This document shows positions 1,012-52,200 of a DNA stretch of 64,000 nt, piece by piece. Source of the stretch: Megaleporinus macrocephalus (taxonomy: Eukaryota; Chordata; Actinopteri; Characiformes; Anostomidae); the NCBI GenBank assembly GCA_021613375.1, contig CM038722.1:20958107-21022106 (forward strand), given 5' to 3'. The translations under genes were made by a program, and so were the position numbers. The notes under the pieces are model-generated. The model saw only the letters and a program-made list of their open reading frames with translations, had not been told where the DNA came from and did no database searches. How positions within the stretch are numbered: the first letter of the stretch is position 1; each line of letters starts with the position of its first letter.

Positions 1012-29907
<28,896 letters not shown>

Positions 29908-30411: not shown

Positions 30412-30879
30412 GTCTCTCTCTGACACAATAAGACACCTGATCAGGTGAGTATTCTGTCATGCCGGCTACAGCTGTGGATCAGATCTCCTGCAGTTTGTCT
30501 CCTTCAGTACTAACGTTACAGCAGAGCCATCACAGAGGGAGGGGGGACACCAGCCTACTGCCAGGGAAAGAGGTCAAGCATGAAAAGGTCAGCACATGCA
30601 GTCACAGGTTACAGCTTACAGCATGTTGATCTATTTTCTTGATACTTTTGTAATTTTGTAATTTTGTAATTTTTTGTAAAAGTTACTGGAAAACAAATTT
30701 GTGTTGATGTAGAACATTTTATCCATGTGGAAATAAAATACACATTTAAATCAAGTTCTTTCCATACATCACCTTTCCAAATGTATTCTTCAGCCTTATT
30801 TTATTTGTAATAGACTATGATGACCACTGAAAGTTGAGATCTAATCTCGTTAATAGTAATATAAAGTTATGCCCATATA
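29908..30879. other. tmprss3 upstream region with (CT)n tract
   Basis: Would hold the tmprss3 5' UTR and promoter. A (CT)n tract lies at 30364-30421, near ACACCTGATCAGGTGAG at 30432-30448. No clear TATA box or non-coding exon is resolvable. Confidence 0.4.
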
Positions 30880-31384
30880 CACTACCGCTCAGAAGTTTGG
30901 GATCACAGTGAAATGTTCTTGTTTTTAATGGAGTATCTTCTTCCTTAACACAACAATGAACTGACGGGTCTCTAAAGAAAGTTGTTTCTTTCTGGTCATT
31001 TTGATTCTGTCAGCAAGCCATCAACTGCTGATCTTCAGATACTAAACTAACCTAGAATGTTGTTCCCTTTTATTCTCACTTATTAGTAGAATGTTTTTCA
31101 ATTGAGCAAGAGTGTCCTAACAACCAGTTAGTCCAATAACATACTTAACTTGGATTAGTGGCTGTACCAGGAGATTTAGACAGAGGACTGAGAATTACTG
31201 ATAATAGGACTATATGTAAAATAAGCCTCTATACAAAAATAGACTTTAATACAAACATTTTTATTCTTTAAAAATCATCTGATACACTTAAATTAATTGT
31301 GAAATGGACAGTATTGTTTGTGAATTGCATGAAAATTGCATGAAATGAAATTCTAAAGAGATCCTAAACTGCTGAGCGGTAGTG
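30880..31384. mobile_element. Tc1/mariner-like MITE, copy 1
   Basis: Starts CACTACCGCTCAGAAGTTTG after TA and ends GAGCGGTAGTG, its inverted match. The body (GGGATCACAGTGAAATGTTC and ACTGACGGGTCTCTAAAG) is the same family as 47537-48050. The TA after the right end has mutated to CA. Confidence 0.75.
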
Positions 31385-38537: not shown

Positions 38538-41500
38538 AGATGCCAGGAGCGATGGACGCCGGCCGGTACCGGGCACGGTGTTTGCAGGTGAAAGTAGTTA
38601 AAGGTCACTCCGTGAAAATATCTCGCGTGCCTCGTTTTCGTGCTTCGAATTGGTGTCTCTGCCCAACTTCCAGCTCTGTTCCAGGTTGTTTCTCGAGACA
38701 AAGTTTCCCCTTAAAACGGCCTAATTTGGTGGTCTCATGTGTCTGATACCATTTTTCTTTATTGATATCATGTTATGTGCGTTTTTACAGCGGTTCTGTC
38801 AGATCAGCAGTCTGTGCATGCAGAACCCTTTCAGTACATATGATGAAGAACAGCAGCGCGTGACAGCCTCGAGCCATTTACTGTCAGAATTCCTGAATTC
38901 CGCTTTGGAAGTGGGCTGGAACAGGGAAGCACGAGTTGTCTGTGGAAAACTCTCTTGTTCTGGGGGCTTTGAGGTCATTCTCGGAGGATTTGGTCCTCTC
39001 CTCACAGTTTTTTCCTGTGGGAATATGAAAGCCGCTCGTTTAAACGGGCATCACTGACTGATTTATGGATTCGACATCTCGAGGTTTGATCTCTGGGACA
39101 TTGGAGCAAAACAGCCTGCCGTTGTCAGTGGTTGGTGTTTGTAACCTCTTGGTTGTGAACGTAGGCTCTGATCTTCACCAGGAGCCCAACTCGCTCCTTT
39201 AGATGGTCCAGTGACGTCACAGCCGGGAAGACACCAGTTTCCAGCATGTCTTGGGAAAAAATTTAATTTACATTTATAAGCTGTCATTTCTGTTGGACAG
39301 GAGAAGTAAACTGCTATTTGTTTATTTCACTGTATAGTCACAGTATTATTTATTTGGCGGGAGGCTTGTAATTATCTGAAGTAGGGTTTGGAAATATGAC
39401 CATATATATATATATATATATCATTATCATTATCATGGCTTATTATGTCACCATACAATAGGTTTTTTTGAAAAAATCATTGATATCATCAGTATTTGTA
39501 AACCGCTGACCCACTGCATAACAAGTAGCAGAAAACTGGCCCCTTTTAACTGGATTTAGCGCAAAACAGCAAATACAATTACTGAATAAAAATCTTTGTG
39601 CTTACAGTTTTTGATAGTGTTGTTTAAAATGTTTTTAAAATGCTTTTCTCATATCATGACATTCTGAATATTTTAGTATCGTAATATATCATATCATGTC
39701 ATATCGCCTATCTCTGGTTGAGTTATTGATACCTTTGATACATGATTAGTAGGCAGGGTAGTAATACATCATGTTCATAAGTATTCCCTAAAGAAAGCAG
39801 ACTCTGTCCAGAGATAGCTTTATGCATATTTTGGAAGATTATGTTTAATACAATCAAAGGTTGTAATGAATCATATGTAAAAGTTTAGTTGAAAACATTC
39901 CAAAGTTGACTAAAATTATCATATGATTGTTATGTGAAGAAACAGTTTTGATATGCATCAAAGGCATCCATGTATCATGTTTCAGAGATACCAGCTGGGT
40001 GGCCCTGGCCTGTCTGGTCTCATAATACCACTTTGGTTCTCAAGACGTGATAGTGAGTCAGTGTGGCAATAATCAGTCTAAAATGAGAGGATTAAAAAGC
40101 ACCACTGCTACTCTGACGGTGTGTTCTAACTTCTTGTCAAGCATGTTGGAGGTTCTGCCCCTGTTAGAACATTTAAAGCCATGTAGCCAATAAAAGGAAG
40201 AGTAAATGCAACGATGGCTAAAGCTTAGGGCAAGCGACCATTATCACCACCACCGTCTGCTGTCGAAACATTAGCATTGCTTTACAATGCTGGAGACACA
40301 TTGGCATTGCTTTACAATGCTGGAGACACATTGGCATTGCTTTACAATGCTGGAGAAACATTGGCATTGCTTTACAATGCTCGGAACACATTGGCATTGC
40401 TTTACAATGCTGGGGACACATTGGCATTGCTTTACAATGCTGGAAAAATATTGGCATTGCTTTACAATGCTGGAGACACATTGGCATTGCTTTACAATGC
40501 TGGAGAAACATTGGCATTGCTTTACAATGCTGGAGAAACATTGGCATTGCTTTACAATGCTGGCGACACGTTGGCATTGCTTTACAATGCTGGAGACACA
40601 TTGGCATTGCACATTGGTGTTGCTTTACAATGCTGGAGACACATTGGCATTGCACATTGGCGTTGCTTTACAATGCTGGAGACACATTGGCATTACTTTA
40701 CAATGCTGGAGACACATTGGCATTGCACATTGGCGTTGCTTTACAATGCTGGAGACACATTGGCGTTGCTTTACAATGCTGGAGACACATTGACATTGCT
40801 TAACAATGCTGGAGACACATTGGCATTGCATTACAATGGAGATGTTATTGATGAGTTAAAATATGAAGTTTGCTGCATTGTTCTTGACTGGTAACAGTTG
40901 AAGAGGGAGGATGATGAACTGTGCATTTTCCGATGATACTCTATGTCGCCCCCTATTGTTTAGAGTATGTATTTGACAGGTTGTGTCATCTTACAAATCA
41001 CTCCTTTAATGCACTATGATACTTTTTCTTCCCTGGAAATGTCAGTTTTTGACTTTGCTTTGTTTTCTTAATCACTTTGTGGGAAATATTACAAAAAGGC
41101 AAGATATTTGGCTGAAAAATGCTTTTTATTTTGGGGCTCGTTCTTTCTTGAACAGTCTTTTTGGATAGAATGTGGCAATGTGCTCTCAGAATGAAGTGAT
41201 CTGACTGAAACAAAAGCCAGGGACATCGTGAAATGTAAATGTATTGCTTGTCGCTTTTTAAAGATAAGATCCCTAATTTAAGGTCTAGTTGCTGAAGCAG
41301 AGATACGTTTACTACGAAGGATCCTATAGGTCATATAAAATATCTTGTTAGTAAAAAGAGACCCATGGCTTCAGAAAAAGACTTGTGACTGTAGTCCAAT
41401 AAGACAGGCCCTGAACACGCCCCCGAACAAGCTTCACCTCTGGCTGAAAGTGATCTGTTTTAAAAAATAAGGATCCAATGTTTGTAGATGGCAAGGTGGT

Positions 41501-43789
41501 TACATTCAAATAGACTGTACTAACGCTGTCACCTGGTAGTATAACTCATCCTCCGTAAGCCCCCTCTTTAGTCCCTGGGTTACCCTGGATCTTGAAAAGC
41601 TGTTTGTGGTGATGTTATGAACTCACTTCATGCTTGCTAGTCTCTGGTGGAGTTTTATACAGCGGTATTCTCTAATACTAGGCCAGCAAGTGGTAGAAGT
41701 GGTTAGTAGACAGCAGCAATGTGTTCTGTAGGTCCAAACAAGCACGAGATGATTGTCCATTTGCTCTGCTGCAGGTTTTCTTAAGAATTTTCTCTGTGTT
41801 TTTAATTAGCTGTTAAAAACAGGGACAGTTTTGGGGAATGTCCCCTGAAAATGGTCCAAATGTCATTGTTGCTGCCACAAACTGTGATTTCTTGTCATTA
41901 TTAACTGTGTTGTCCTGTGTCACAATACGAATAATGACATTTCCTGAACTCACACATGTCGGATTTATTAAAACCAAGTGAATTGTAGTACTTGCAGTTC
42001 TGGCAGTGGTCAACCTGCCCTGAATTAGTTTTTCGCGCTAATGTAATGTACAATTGCTTAATATAAAATCTGTATCTGTTTCAGGTGATGGGCTTTGAAG
42101 TGGACTCCATCAACTCGGTACAGTTCTCCAATCATACAGGTATAGTTGGAACATACCTTTCCTGATATGACGATAGGCTGCCTTTCTTACCAATCTTAAT
42201 TCCTCTAGCTATTAATTGGTGTCATGACCTGTTTAGGCTGGACAGGTAAATTAGCCTGTGTTTGTCTTTGCTCATTTAAAAGTTGTGCATTCACAGAATA
42301 TTGATGTCATCAGTCTGTGACCTCTTCTGACTTTTTGTCCTCACTGACCCACTGACCGGTGGAGCTCCTTTCTGTTTATGTTAGCTACTTCATGATCTCT
42401 GAAGTGACCTTTCTGCTGGTCATGAGTTACCCTGAAGCATCACATAAGCAAAACTCTCTGACCTGCCTGTTCAGTCCAGGCAGTTACGGAAAACACTGCA
42501 AAGTTCTTTTGGTCGTTCAAGATGTAGGTATGCACTTATCAGGCGACGCAAGAGTAGCTGTCAGTTTTGCGTTTGTTCAGACACTCAAGCAATAGTAGAA
42601 CTAATATGAAAGCAGTAGAAAGGTTTACAGGAGATTTCTTACATCAGAAACCATATAGGTTGCTGGTCATTAATTTAATCCCAGTTTTTTTTTTACTTCT
42701 GTGGTTCTAACAACGTAGGCCTTGTACATTATTTGATGACGTTACTCTCGTCACTGCTGCTCTATTTTAATATACTACTGGTCACCATGGTGATGACAGC
42801 TCAAAGACCCACTGTTTGTACACTGTTAATTACTGAAGCATCCGGACAGATAAAATATAGACATGTATAGCCAACAGCATCTAAAACCAAAACCTAAAGG
42901 TAGACATATTTAGAGTCATGGCAAAACTATTCTTGGACAGTTAAGTGAAGGACAGTTGGTTCATCATTTTTTTGATTTTTGAGAATTGATTACGATTGAC
43001 AGCTCTGCTAGAAAAACCAGCATGGACCAGCATTTGGCTGCTTGTATTGTATGTTGGATGCAGGTCACCCAGCATGGACGTTTACCAGCATTTGATTCGT
43101 GCTGGTGTTTTCAGCAGGGAGCTGACACTGAGGGATGATTGGCGTTTGCAAATCCTAAGAGGTCGAGCTCCCTTCTGGTTTGTTTGCAGTTTGGTCTCAG
43201 GTTGATGGATTGTTGCATCTTTAGTAATTTGACTAACTGAAGTACGCAGGACAGTTTGTAACCTTTTGGTAAGCTACAAGAAGAGTCCAGATCAGAACTT
43301 TGGTATTCTCTCTAAAAAACATTGTTGTGAGTTTTGGCAGCAGTCTGTGAAGCATGTCTGACCTCGCAATGGTTGCTCTGATAGAATGCATTGTGGGCAG
43401 AACACAGATAGGTAAAGAAAATAATTAACAAAAACAAAAAACTAACAAAGGTCAATCTTTGACGGACCTGGTTTTGTATGTGCCAAATAGCCATTAGTCA
43501 GTTTCAGTGTTCTCAAATTGATCAGAGTAGAGACAGTCACTGGGGGGCTTTGTCAGGACAGTGTAAGTGATAAGATACTTGCTTCAGGGGGGTAGCTATG
43601 GTCATTTGGTTACAGAAATATGTTCTGTTCGGTGCGTGCGTTGGTCCAAGCTGATGAGTATGCAGGCTGCAGTTGGAGGTGGTCTGAGAGACACAGAGCC
43701 TATTTTGGTCAGAGCCTTTGAGGACAGAGAAAGAGTAAGGTGAGTCATGTATGAGGTGAGGGGATGTGTGGAGCTTGGTGATGTTCATT

Positions 43790-44189: not shown

Positions 44190-47100
44190 TGTAAATGTGT
44201 CCAGTCACAGCCCTTCAACCCTTCGCTGAACTCTTATCCATTACAAAGGGACAAGCGCAACTGATCTGGGATCAGTAGTTCACCTCCCTCCTGTTCTCCA
44301 TTCATTTAGGGCTGAACTTGCTCCCAGTCTCGCTCCGCTGCACCCCCTCTCCCTTTGGACCACGATGTTGTCTTCAGCCACTTGAGCCACTTTGTCTCTC
44401 CAGTGGAGCTTAAAGTGGAAGAAGGCTGATGAAATAAAAAGGAGTGCGTTACAGGGCTGATGCTGGAGTTTTAGCCAGCACTGTAGGATGAGGCTAACAC
44501 TGATGATATCAATTAAGCAAAAGTTGGTAATCGATTATTTGACTAATCAAACTATTATCCTCATCCTATCGAAGTTCCATCTGTGCAGCACAATGTCTTC
44601 TTAAGTATATCATCAAACTCTGCTTGTTATACGCTCTTCATTGAACTTGGTTACTTAATTGAAAATTCAATTACAGTTTCGAGGACAAAGCTCCTCATCA
44701 TTTGCGATGCTTAATGTTGGAAATACATACCTCTTCTCAGCAGTAGTTCAAGTTCGTTAGAGGTTGTGATGATAACTTGATTTACTTGCCTGGTGGTGTA
44801 GTGGTTAGTATGGTGGTGTAGTGGTTAGTACGGTGGTGTAGTGGTTAGTATGGTGGTGTAGTGGTTAGTACGGTGGTGTAGTGGTTAGTACGGTGGTGTA
44901 GTGGTTAGTATGGTGGTGTAGTGGTTAGTACGGTGGTGTAGTGGTTAGTACGGTGGTGTAGTGGTTAGTACGGTGGTGTAGTGGTTAGTAAGGTGGTGTA
45001 GTGGTTAGTACGGTGGTGTAGTGGTTAGTATGGTGGTGTAGTGGTTAGTACGGTGGTGTAGTGGTTAGTATGGTGGTGTAGTGGTTAGTACGGTGGTGTA
45101 GTGGTTAGTACGGTGGTGTAGTGGTTGGTATGGTGGTATAGTGGTTAGTACGGTGGTGTAGTGGTTGGTATGGTGGTATAGTGGTTAGTACGGGGGTGTA
45201 GTGGTTAGTATGGTGGTGTAGTGGTTAGTATGCTGGTGTAGTGGTTGGTATGGTGGTATAGTGGTTAGTACGGGGGTGTAGTGGTTAGTACGGTGGTGTA
45301 GTGGTTAGTACGGTGGTGTAGTGGTTAGTAAGGTGGTGTAGTGGTTAGTACGGTGGTGTAGTGGTTAGTACGGTGGTGTAGTGGTTAGTACGGTGGTGTA
45401 GTGGTTAGTATGGTGGTGTAGTGGTTAGTATGGTGGTGTAGTGGTTAGTATGGTGGTGTAGTGGTTAGTAAGGTGGTGTAGTGGTTAGTATGGAGGTGTA
45501 GTGGTTAGTATGGTGGTGTAGTGGTTAGTATGGTGGTGTAGTGGTTAGTATGGTGGTGTAGTGGTTAGTAAGGTGGTGTAGTGGTTAGTACGGTGGTGTA
45601 GTGGTTAGTACGGTGGTGTAGTGGTTAGTACGGTGGTGTAGTGGTTAGTACGGTGGTGTAGTGGGTAGTACGGTGTTATAGTGGTTAGTACGGTGGTGTA
45701 GTGGTTAGTATGGTGGTGTAGTGGTTAGTACGGTGGTGTAGTGGTTAGTACGGTGGTGTAGTGGGTAGTACGGTGTTATAGTGGTTAGTACGGTGTTATA
45801 GTGGTTAGTACGGTGGTGTAGTGGTTAGCACGGTGGTGTAGTGGTTAGTACGGTGGTGTAGTGGGTAGTACGGTGGTGTAGTGGGTAGTACGGTGGTGTA
45901 GTGGTCAGTACGGTGTTGTAGTGGTCAGTACGGTGGTGTAGTGGTCAGTACGGTGGTGTAGTGGTTAGTACGGTGGTGTAGTGGTTAGTAGGGTGGTGTA
46001 GTGGTTAGTACGGTGGTGTAGTGGTTAGTACGGTGGTGTAGTGGTTAGTACGGTGGTGTAGTGTTAGTAAGGTGGTTTAGTGGTTAGTACGGTGGTGTAG
46101 TGGTTAGTACGGTGGTGTAGTGGTTAGTATGGTGGTGTAGTGGTTAGTACGATGGTGTAGTGGTTAGTACGGTGGTGTAGTGGTTAATACGGTGGTGTAG
46201 TGGTTAGTACGGTGGTGTAGTGGTTAGTACGGTGGTGTAGTGGTTAGTATGGTGGTGTAGTGGTTAGTACGGTGGTGTAGTGGTTAGTTCGGTGGTGTAG
46301 TGGTTAGTATGGTGGTGTAGTGGTTAGTACGGTGGTGTAGTGGTTAGTATGGTGGTGTAGTGTTAGTATGGTGGTGTAGTGGTTAGTATGGTGGTGTAGT
46401 GGTTAGTATGGTGGTGTAGTGGTTAGTACGGTGGTGTAGTGGTTAGTATGGTGGTGTAGTGGTTAGTACGGTGGTGTAGTGGTTAGTACGGTGGTGTGGT
46501 GGTTTCGGGTGACGATCCGGGTTGGATTCCCGGTCCGGGTGGTCTGTGTGGAGTGTGTATGTTCTCTCTGTGTTTGAGTGGGTTTCCTCCGGGTACTCCG
46601 GTTTCCTCCCACACATCCAAACACATGCATGTTAGGTTGATCGCTCACTCTAAACTGCCCGTGTACATGAGAGTGTGTGTGTGTGTTGGCCATTTAAAGG
46701 ACTGGTGATCTGTTCATGGTGAACCCCGCATTCGCCCAATGACGCTGAGATAGGCTGCAACCCCCCCTGGTGACCCTGACTAGTGGGAAGCAGAAGATGA
46801 TGAATGGATGGATTAGTTCTGTCTTCAGGGTATTATGAAACCATGTTATGCAGTCTTCTCCACAGGGGGGCGCTATCAGAACTGAAAAAGAGGAAATCCA
46901 CACCAGCAGGAACTCGTGAATGTGCGTTTGCATTTAAAATTCCATGTAGATGAAGCAAAATTCAGTGTTTGCTGTTACGAATTACGTCTACATGATTGCT
47001 AATTTAATTGTAACAGCATTAAGTTTAAATGTAATTTGTCTTCATTTAAGATACACTGTCCCTTCACTCTCCTGTTGTCCTCAAATTTAGATTTAATTTC

Positions 47101-49172
47101 AAATTTACCAACATCTTTCATCCTTGGGGTCAGTTTCACTCCAGCAATGTCAAGTGCTTTGTTCCTTTGCAAAAAAACAACAAAAAAAGTCAATAATTTA
47201 TTTAGAGATATTAAATATTGAATGGGGTCAAACTTGCCTTACTCCAGAGATAACAGGGAGACAGGCTGATAGACGCATCAAAGTGTTTTGGAATATTAAA
47301 AAAAATGCAAACTCTGATAATTAATTGCTAATGTGATGGACAGTGACAGGCCTCAATACAGATATTACTGAAGCATGATGAAGCACTACAGTGGGGTCTG
47401 AAGAGTTGAATGCCTGTTAAAGCTTATGAACAGAAAGCTATTACATGCAATGATCAGGAATACATTCCCTGATGTCAGAGACGTTTTAATTTGATGGACA
47501 GCTTTCGGCCTAAGATCCATTCGTTGCATAGAGATACACTACTGCTCAAAAGTTTGGGATCACAGTGAAATGTTCTTGTTTTCAATGGAGTATCTTCTTC
47601 CTTAACACAACAATGGACTGACGGGTCTCTAAAGAAAGTTGTTTCTTTCTGGTCATTTTGAGTCGGTCAGCAAGCCAGCAACTGCTGATCTTCAGATACT
47701 AAACTAACCTAGAATGTTGTTCCCTTTTATACTCACTTATTAGTAGAATGTTTTTCAGCTGTGCATCACAATTGAGCAAGAGTGTCCTAACAACCAATTA
47801 GTCCAACAACATCCTTAACTTGGATTGGTGGGCGTACCAGGAGATTTAGACAGAGGACTGAGAATTGCTGATAATATATATGCAAAATAAGCCTCTATAC
47901 AAAAATAGGCTTTAATACAAACATTTTTATTCTTTAAAAATAATCTGATACACTTACATTAATTGTGAAATGGACAATATTGTTTGTGAATTACATAAAA
48001 ATTGCATAATATGAAATTCTAAAGTAATTCTAAACTTTTGAGCGGTAGTGTACATGTAGGGTGTTACGAGGCAAAATAGTACTGAAAGAAAACAATGTTT
48101 TTCTGATCTACCGCTATTTTAACGTGAATAAAACTTTATATAAATATATAATTTGAATTATTTAGTTTACATCTGGATGGAATTTTGCAGAACCATGTTG
48201 GAAATGCTGGAATTGCCCTTTAACAGATGCTGGAACCAATATAAACCAATTAAAGTGTGTGTCAGTTACTGTGGTAATAATGGGCTTCATGTAATATCGG
48301 TCTGCATGTAAGTGAGTGGGCTGCTCAGTGGAGGTGAGGTTGAAGGGGTGAGGTGTGTGTTGAGAAATAAGGGTCTGTGAATAGCTGGGTTTTCTGAATG
48401 GAGGGCATTGCGCTGTAGCGGAGATGTGAAGGTGAATGACGTAGGAGTGTGTGTGTGTATGTGTGTGTGAGAGAGAGAGAGTGAGTGAGTGAGTGTGTCA
48501 TTCAGTTTGGGTTTGCTGAGCTGACTCATTTTGCGTAAGCGTCAGTATGTGTGTTGGCTCATTAGGGTCCCGCAACACATGCCACTGTCTCACACTCCCT
48601 CTCTCTCCTCGTCTCTCTTATTCTGGCATTCTGAAATGACAGCCGCTGCCTCGACCAGTGACGTAGAGCCAGAGAAAGAGATTGAAAACCTATAAAGACT
48701 ATAACAGATCCAGTGAGAGAGAGACTGCAAAATGAAGAGATCCTAGGCGAGAGGACAGAGTAAGCAAAAAGAGCAGAAAGACGACGACAACAATAACAAT
48801 CAGTTGGTGAGGAGATGAAATGAGCAAGTGAACAAATGGTGTCTGATGAATGTCAGCGCTCGTTTCCTTGAGGCGTCAGGGTTTAGAGCTGCAGTATGTA
48901 CAGTTGGCTTTATTAAAACTGAGAGAAATGGCATTAGTGAGTCCAGACATTTAAAAAAGCATGTTAAAATATGGTGTGTGTGCTGCTGCGGATCACGCTG
49001 TACAGCTGAAGCGATGATTTAAATGTTACTGGTGTCCGGTCAGGTTTCACAGATGTTTTAAAAACCATATTATGATATATTATAATATATTAATAAATAT
49101 ATATATATTCATATAATTTTATCCAGATGTAAACTAAATCTTTCAAATTATATATATATTTATAATATATAT

Positions 49173-49264
<92 letters not shown>

Positions 49265-52200
49265 ATTATTATTATTTTTTAGAGTTTACGAGATTGTTTA
49301 TGGTTTTGTGCTGATCCTGCTGGTTTACAGCAGTATTAGCCTAATAACTAGCCCCAAACCTAACCAGACAGGTCAAGGCTGGTTGACCTGTTGTCAGCAT
49401 GGACTTAAATACAGTGTATTTGCTAGATTAAGGTTAGACCAGGGTTCGAGAGCTCATAGAATATCTGTACCACGGTATCTTAAGAATAAAGCTTATACTC
49501 TGAACCGGTCTCCCTCTTCATACTATGGCAAGACAGACGTTACAGCAAGTCACCGGCTCGAGGTTTAGATCTGGAATGTAAAATCAATACTACACTGATG
49601 TTGACATTAATTGATAATTCACTCACATCCTCGAATAGACAGTCCTGCAACAAGTTTTCATTTCATTCTTTCTGAGTACTCTTTTACTGCGATCGCGATC
49701 ACCTTATTCATCCAACGCTATGACATGCTCTTCCGCAGGTTGTGTACAATCTCACGCTTACACCAGAGAGGTCGGCAACATTTTCCATAGTGTAGCTTTA
49801 AGGGAGTCTAAAACAAATGCTACTTTGAACTACTCCCTGTATTAAATTAGTTCTTAATAGTATATATTAAAATGCTAATACGTGCTGAAGGCTAGGTGGG
49901 CCACGTGGTGATGCAGATGTAGTTTTATAAACCGTTTTAATCCTTTTAAAAGTAAGGGTGACTTCTTTTACTCCATGCTCCAGCTGCAGATGAGGTCAAG
50001 TCAAGATTCCAGTAAGATTCCAGGTACTCTGGTTTTCTCCCACACGTCCCACACATGCATGCCATTTAAAGGACTGGTGATCTGTCCATGGTGAACCCCG
50101 CATTCGCCCAATGACGCTGAGATAGGCTGCAACCCCCCCTGGTGACCCTGACTAGTGGGAAGCAGAAGATGATGGATGGGTGGATTAGTTCTGTCTTCAG
50201 GGTATTATGAAACCATGTTATGCAGTCTTCTCCACAGGGGGGCGCTATCAGAACTGAAAAAGAGGAAATCCACACCAGCAGGAACTCGTGAATGTGCGTT
50301 TGCATTTAAAATTCCATGTAGATGAAGCAAAATTCAGTGTTTGCTGTTACGAATTACATCTACAAGATTCCAGTAAGTCATTGTCCTGAATGCCAATGCT
50401 ACAGGAGAAGTTCTCAGTGTTCTTAATGGATCTCACTATTCTGTATTTGTGTACCCCATACACTCCTGTTACATGAGTGACAGTGTTGCGACTATTAATT
50501 GTACGCCATTGTCAATTTTACTGAAAGCTTAACAAATACTTTGAATCGAACAATAGAAAGATAATACACTTCTCTCCTGTTCTATTGGTTTACAGTGTGG
50601 GAGCCACTTCTGTGAACAGATTCATGCTAAACGATTTCATTTGTTGTTTGACTGCATTCATGACCAATTGAAGGAAATGCATTCCTACTTATTAGTATTT
50701 CCATTAAGAATGTTTTTCTAGATTATGTAATTGTAAGGTTAAATTAGTGCTTTTGTGTCCTGGTTTGGCGCTCTATTAACAGTGAGTTGCTTAATCCTAC
50801 ATCCACCTTTTAGCCCAAATCCAACAACCCTGTAATTCAAATGTGCATAAATGGATGGAAACTAACAGAGTCCAGTTAATAAGCTGTTGGAACCTTCCTA
50901 AGTAGTTTAACTAGTTGTTAGCCAGCATTCCTTCAATTTCTTATAAGTGAAATGATCAGTCTGGCTTTAAATGAGAGAGGACAGCTTTTCACGCCCTGTT
51001 AGGACTGCTAATGGCCTGCATGTGGTGAGCATTTCTCCATTAGTCGGCGCTGCCTCTCTCTACACAGATGAGGTATGTCCGGTGCCAGCTCGGCCTCTTG
51101 GACCACTGCCATCTCCATCACTTCCAAGGCGCTGTGTGGCTTTTAATCTCCCCTCTTCGAAAACCCTGAACTTTTTCTCTCGTAAATCTCTGAAAGGCCA
51201 GACTCTGAGTCATTTCACTGAGAAACCCGGCAGGCCCTTTAAACAGCACTAAACATCTGCGAAGGATGCTCTTTGGGCCGAATCATTGTCAGTAATGCAA
51301 ATTGGATTTCTTGCAGTCACTGAGGTTCAAGCCTCAAGCGTTTGAACGCCAATGTTGTAAGTTTCTCGCAACCATAGGAGACCAGGGATGAATTTCACGT
51401 TCAGATTTTTCTATTTAGTCATATGCCCAAGTTCTACAGAGAACACACTTTTGCACATTTTAATAAACAATTGTTTTTTTTATAAATGTTCCTATGGACA
51501 TTTTTTGTACATTACTTTTTTTCCAATAAGCTAAATTCAGTGAATAGAAATTTACAAAAAGCTGCCATGTATTTGTTTGCTGTAGAGGATTAGTTCACTT
51601 ACTACATGTAATTTGGCCACAGGAGTTTAAAACTCTGCAAGTAAGTCTTATTAAAATGCCTTTAAAGGAACAGTATGTAAGATTTGTATTTTAAAACATT
51701 CCAACGTTAACTAAAAGTATCAAGTGAATTTTAAAAAATAATATCTTTGACAGTACATTAAGATAAGATAATCCTTTATTATTCCCACAGTAGAGAAATT
51801 CACCGTGTTACAGCAGCAAAGGGATAGCAAGGCACTCAGTACAACAAATAGATACATAAACAGTACAGTATATACAATATAAATAATAAAAAGTCAAGAA
51901 CTCTTAAGATTGTATTTACATACAAGTTGTCTGTGTAACGTGCTGAAGTTAGCATGCTAACCAGTTATCACAGTCCCATCAGAGTATTCCTGTCTATAAT
52001 ACAACTTAATACAATACAAGTACCTAAAAATAGTTAGGTATTAGTGATAGTGAATCGCTTAAGCATCGTCTTTCTTCAGTCCGACGTGTGAAAATGATAA
52101 AGTAGCCCTTCTCCAATGCTGTTTTGTAATCTCTTATCAGTCCTGTTGAAGGTCATGCTCTTGGGTAGATCATTTAGGAACAGGTAACCAATGAAGGAAA

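Follow-up and report, generated by a model that had tools for sequence, protein, structure and literature searches.

A 20-bp minisatellite probably born from the tRNA-like head of one SINE copy in a pdxk intron of Megaleporinus macrocephalus

An intron of the pyridoxal kinase gene pdxk of Megaleporinus macrocephalus contains a 20-bp tandem array, which is best explained as a minisatellite (probably a VNTR) that was born in one copy of a teleost tRNA-derived SINE, grew by slippage or unequal exchange and is likely neutral. We put the probability of this reading at about 0.8. The slippage route, the length polymorphism and the lack of function are what we infer from the 64,000 nucleotides analysed (the window) and from relatives of the element. 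The intronic position claimed in the earlier note is borne out by the exon in front of the array, whose peptide matches pyridoxal kinase chains (Table 1). We take this exon to be exon 2 by the numbering that we assume for pdxk; the next one presumably lies at about 56605, where assumed pdxk peptide words were located.

Table 1. Coordinates of the features discussed (positions in the window)
Feature	Position	Strand	Evidence
pdxk exon; the array lies in the intron directly after it	42085..42139	+	peptide vs pyridoxal kinase chains, best E 6.1e-06
Minisatellite of 85 tRNA D-arm units, period 20 bp	44792..46489	+	TRF, unit parsing
Final strict A-box; the B-box-like site follows after 37 nt	46472..46482	+	motif scan
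Unit 86, degenerate and with a broken A-box, 17 nt ahead of the B-box-like site	46490..46504	+	unit parsing
SINE-like body with an ATGG-type end, dispersed in teleosts	46505..46825	+	11 relatives
B-box-like GGTTGGATTCC, G in place of C56	46520..46530	+	motif scan; relatives' codon F in 10/11
Second, shorter, 5'-truncated copy of the element, same intron	50003..50377 (aligned 50019-50369)	+	between perfect 14-bp direct repeats AAGATTCCAGTAAG
Other minisatellites, units of 36, 42, about 26 and 30 bp	7008-7302, 14126-16385, 17324-20735, 40258-40838		TRF

TRF delimits the array at 44792-46504 (period 20, 85.8 copies, 94% matches, score 2978), that is, as the short tandem units in many copies of which a transposon-derived minisatellite consists. 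Parsing resolves it into 85 clean head-to-tail units, 83 of 20 bp and two of 19 bp, followed from 46490 by a degenerate 86th unit that joins the array to the SINE-like body; the previously claimed number of about 85 units from a SINE head therefore holds. There are 21 unit types. The commonest, GGTGGTGTAGTGGTTAGTAC, accounts for 34 of the 85 units and its T-ended variant for 20, giving 54 together. Position 20 of the 83 full-length units is C in 53, T in 25, A in four and G in one, and position 1 is G in all 83. CpG decay was considered as the source of the variation at position 20 and rejected, since the invariant G at position 1 leaves strand-symmetric deamination unsupported.

Neighbouring units are slightly closer to each other than random pairs (1.05 vs 1.18 mismatches). 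Two occurrences of a block of unit types, AADF, lie five units apart, and a 1-bp deletion of the same type is found in two units; both observations suggest local duplication. No higher-order structure was found by autocorrelation of unit types, the best value (0.31, lag 2) being equal to the shuffle mean of maxima (0.31). The outer fifths of the array have 0.06 and 0.19 mismatches per unit (position 20 excluded) compared with 0.47-0.53 in the middle. The edges are thus more uniform than the middle, contrary to the prediction of a simple model, and we report this without an explanation. Together with the four other larger arrays picked from the TRF table, the 20-bp array occupies 8,261 of the 64,000 bases of the window (12.9%). 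The window also includes a repeat pair, 47534-47800 and 30877-31130, with 91.8% identity over 267 columns.

Judged by its matches, the 20-bp unit is a tRNA-like D-arm sequence. The unit pattern GGTGGTGTAGTGGTTAGYAY was scanned against prokaryote genome contigs (84,980 species, represented by a single genome each) and matched 26 loci, 23 of them inside tRNA genes called by ARAGORN (20 Asp, 2 Gly and 1 His); the remaining three (L008, L017 and L024) have no ARAGORN call and look tRNA-like by eye. As the typical match has five tRNA bases ahead of it, the unit corresponds to tRNA nucleotides 6-25, i.e., the D arm. All 26 loci end in GCAT, and the endings found in the array itself, GTAC or GTAT, occur in none of them. 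The three loci just named and L010, which are archaeal tRNA-like sequences sharing the D-arm 20-mer, look interrupted; ARAGORN places a tRNA at the match only in L010. Viral contigs scanned with the unit pattern gave no matches. A likeness of 18 of 20 bases to tRNA-Glu had been put forward; relative to the tRNA-Glu sequence that we assume, it applies to the T-ended unit, but the commonest unit has 17 of 20. Moreover, Glu is not singled out as the parent tRNA, because the 20-mer class is common to archaeal tRNA-Asp, -Gly and -His genes. For the fish DNA, ARAGORN called no tRNA genes and Rfam reported nothing at the gathering threshold; at E up to 10, the region 46440-46860 had no tRNA match, only one to a miRNA family (E 3.1).

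The sequence that follows the array is, according to its relatives among predicted proteins, a dispersed teleost SINE-like repeat. The open frame 46487-46705 found a single relative, P0001 (E 2.2e-17), and the profile built from this frame and P0001 brought up 35 candidates, 11 of them relatives (counting P0001). Three of the 11 carry fish names, two of Lucifuga dentata and one of Scortum barcoo, both percomorphs. These relatives, together with another copy of the 3' part further along the intron, constitute the dispersed copies expected of a tRNA-derived SINE. Since the relatives are predicted proteins, copies with interrupted frames are under-sampled. Viral contigs had no match for a body pattern and no confirmed one for P0001, the body was unmatched in phage and plasmid records, and its antisense frame had no homologue. 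The literature search found no paper in which a 17-base piece of the SINE head is written out.

In five of the 11 relatives (P0004, P0005, P0006, P0008 and P0009) the frame runs through the head, giving VVS[TA]V and then ASQQEG. P0007 reaches the head in a changed form and the other five begin inside or past it. A stop followed by Y before GG, which in this frame would mark an adjoining upstream unit, is absent from all five head-reading relatives; in P0006 and P0008, with only three or four residues ahead of the head, this check covers the adjoining unit and not a more distant one. The five are not fully independent, as P0003, P0004 and P0005 are near-identical kin. With one head unit in each of the five relatives able to show it, the array looks local to the window copy. 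The comparison of SINEs with one versus many head units, proposed in the earlier note, thus comes out in favour of a single head in 5/5 cases among these 11 predicted proteins. One head stands ahead of the body in the relatives (at codon level only) and unit 86 runs into the body in the window, so that the unit appears homologous to the adjoining element. The unit being D-arm sequence, its flank a teleost SINE-like repeat and the head single in five relatives, the idea that the D-arm part of one SINE was amplified is supported.

With TRGYNNARNGG, which we take to be the strict A-box consensus, the + strand of the array has 76 A-boxes and the - strand none; nine of the 85 units are without one, and the rest of the window contains four on each strand. 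The 12-base A-box form occurs four times in the array and elsewhere in the window four times on the + and eight times on the - strand. The proposed figure of about 85 A-boxes is therefore right for most units but too high as a count under the assumed consensus. The B-box-like site said to follow the array is present: GGTTGGATTCC at 46520 has one mismatch to GGTTCGANTCC and is one of only two sites in the window with at most one. By the tRNA numbering that we assume, it has G at position 56. The corresponding codon of the relatives is F in ten and L in one, and F implies C or T at position 56 in those relatives. Motif scanning detected no B-box within the array.

The A-box to B-box gap is 32 nt in 24 of the 26 archaeal loci (in the other two no gap was found) and, as deduced from codons, 33 nt in the five head-reading relatives, which is a normal spacing at that level. 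In the window, the degenerate unit is so close to the B-box-like site that the anticodon region must be missing, and the tRNA-like part after this unit is about 16 nt shorter than the codons of the relatives imply. The statement that the array ends exactly where the SINE continues consequently needs amending: the body does follow the array, but the degenerate unit intervenes and the tRNA-like part is short. As a tRNA-derived SINE head, the window copy retains the A-box, has a degenerate B-box and lacks the anticodon part. Of the 76 strict A-boxes, only three are within 31-93 nt of the B-box-like site, at distances of 37, 57 and 77 nt. TTTT does not occur from 44600 until 47286.

The earlier note saw in the array a field of TFIIIC/Pol III sites, which might start short transcripts or act as a boundary with help from the downstream B-box. 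The 76 A-boxes on one strand would suit such a role, as would the three inside the permitted range, and yeast tau-A was reported to be partly moved to a second A-box (PMC11724288). In the same report, however, most of the hold on TFIIIC comes from the B-box (nanomolar affinity), the A-box being micromolar and having a small role in recruitment, and natural A-to-B gaps range from 31 to 93 nt (PMC11724288). The array is devoid of B-boxes, and its sole downstream candidate carries C56G, a change described as abolishing TFIIIC-dependent integration of a Dictyostelium retrotransposon (PMC5391098). In mouse, TFIIIC was reported as undetected at two SINEs lacking a conserved B-box, both of which were also outside acetylated regions (PMC3744447). 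The lack of an Rfam tRNA match even at E up to 10 and of TTTT across the region also speaks against Pol III activity. A working type 2 promoter would need an A-box 31-93 nt from an intact B-box; here three A-boxes are in range and C56 is absent. Taken together, the sequence argues against TFIIIC or Pol III binding, and we consider a field of such sites very improbable. The A-boxes are most likely inert as Pol III sites without a working B-box and may be seen as copies of half a fossil promoter.

An extra-TFIIIC (ETC) boundary had also been suggested. ETC sites share with the array a promoter-box sequence without an evident Pol III gene, but they are described as B-box sites, so an A-box-only array followed by one degenerate B-box is unlike them. 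It is conceivable that eighty-odd weak A-box contacts and the degenerate B-box would hold TFIIIC by avidity, forming an A-box-driven tether or boundary in the pdxk intron with a strength varying with array length, but we give this even less credence than the field of Pol III sites. If an A-box-only array did bind TFIIIC, against the sequence evidence, it would provide a length-tunable test of avidity. A narrow literature search for the exact phrases tandem or multiple A-boxes returned nothing on Pol III by title and beginning of abstract, which is no proof of absence.

Another way to obtain several heads is their multiplication at retroposition, through template jumping at the RNA 5' end, in which case the element would have arrived with several heads instead of gaining them by DNA expansion after insertion. 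The array does sit at the 5' end of the element, and partial Alus beside full Alus form one reported class of human repeat (PMC3389668). On the other hand, the block repeats and the two units with the same 1-bp deletion type fit DNA-level duplication, the insertion is unmarked by a target-site duplication, and 85 jumps would be required unless expansion came later. We regard this origin as unlikely, though it is the least unlikely of the alternatives. Somewhat less probable is an effect of strand asymmetry. The G-rich strand of the array is the + strand, which is also the coding strand of pdxk, and its GC skew of +0.86 over 1.7 kb might favour R-loops that slow the polymerase or promote repeat instability. 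Yet such an orientation has an even chance at random, the mean G4Hunter score is 0.73 with seven runs of three or more G, and other G-rich arrays of the window score alike.

The same G4Hunter score and number of G runs led us to reject a G-quadruplex. A sense-RNA hairpin was rejected as well: the first 100 nt of the array folded as RNA have a z of -7.24 and none of 200 dinucleotide shuffles is as stable, but when 2000 composition-shuffled units were handled in the same way, 295 of them equalled or surpassed five copies of the consensus unit, so the fold is taken to be an effect of tandem repetition. Folded as DNA, neither strand of the array did better than shuffles.

The second copy of the element lacks 46631-46688 and continues for 172 bp past the ATGG-type end, with 170 of these 172 bases identical to 46826-46997. 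Either it is a read-through retrocopy or it reveals the true 3' end of the element. Its putative target-site duplication is a perfect 14 bp, while none was found for the array-bearing copy, where the best score, 6, was reached by 82 of 100 shuffles.

A minisatellite is believed to begin when the short repeats on either side of a motif undergo slippage or unequal exchange, and to expand afterwards (PMC6947457). Applied to a SINE-born minisatellite, this would mean that the 20-bp D-arm segment of the tRNA-like head was duplicated first, plausibly through slippage involving short direct repeats at a spacing of 20 bp, and that growth to 85 units proceeded by further slippage, conversion or unequal exchange. 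In four of the five head-reading relatives H (CAY) stands just before the head, and three of those four (P0006, P0008 and P0009) have S-T at the end of the head, which would be AGY ACN with S encoded by AGY. A seed repeat CAC or GCAC with 20-bp spacing would therefore be compatible with three of the five relatives at codon level, and it would have at most 3-4 bp; the direct repeats scored in human are longer, 5-20 bp (PMC3389668). The window flank does not have the codons found before the head in the relatives, so the window copy is presumably shortened or eroded at its left end. Against the SINE-born minisatellite we count the missing target-site duplication, the short seed, the uniform edges and the autocorrelation at shuffle level. 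Judging from the sequence, neutrality of the array is most likely.

The locus offers a clean example of a minisatellite whose unit is a single defined 20-bp piece of a SINE; the remainder of the element is attached, and single-head relatives allow a comparison. It is relevant to the question of how tandem repeats are seeded by transposable elements: 23% of human minisatellites and satellites were reported to be transposon-derived, and postulated mechanisms could account for how such repeats began in only 6% of cases (PMC3389668). It also advises caution, as promoter-box matches inside repeats should not be read as function.

SINE-derived minisatellites are already known, namely the human Alu minisatellites and a mouse B1-derived VNTR (PMC9659126, PMC6947457). 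As described, they resemble the array in that a short internal SINE segment was amplified head to tail; unlike them, the array is built of the D-arm/A-box segment of a fish tRNA-like head, in 85 units that are still joined to the remainder of the element. Tandemly repeated DNA derived from the tRNA-related part of SINE-like elements has been reported too, as Hy/Pol III in Hydromantes and as satellite 1 in Xenopus (PMC9659126, PMC6947457). Their tRNA-related SINE-like origin is common to the array, but they are described as satellite families, whereas the array was seen at one locus and its unit has the A-box half only. The Xenopus satellite 1 repeat has a working Pol III promoter. In Coilia nasus, tandem repeats were found upstream of SINEs at 13 loci (PMC6951006). 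These repeats resemble the array in lying on the 5' side of fish SINEs, but they are described as flanking, while the unit of the array is the SINE's own head. The array adds one more case to the known SINE-derived minisatellites.
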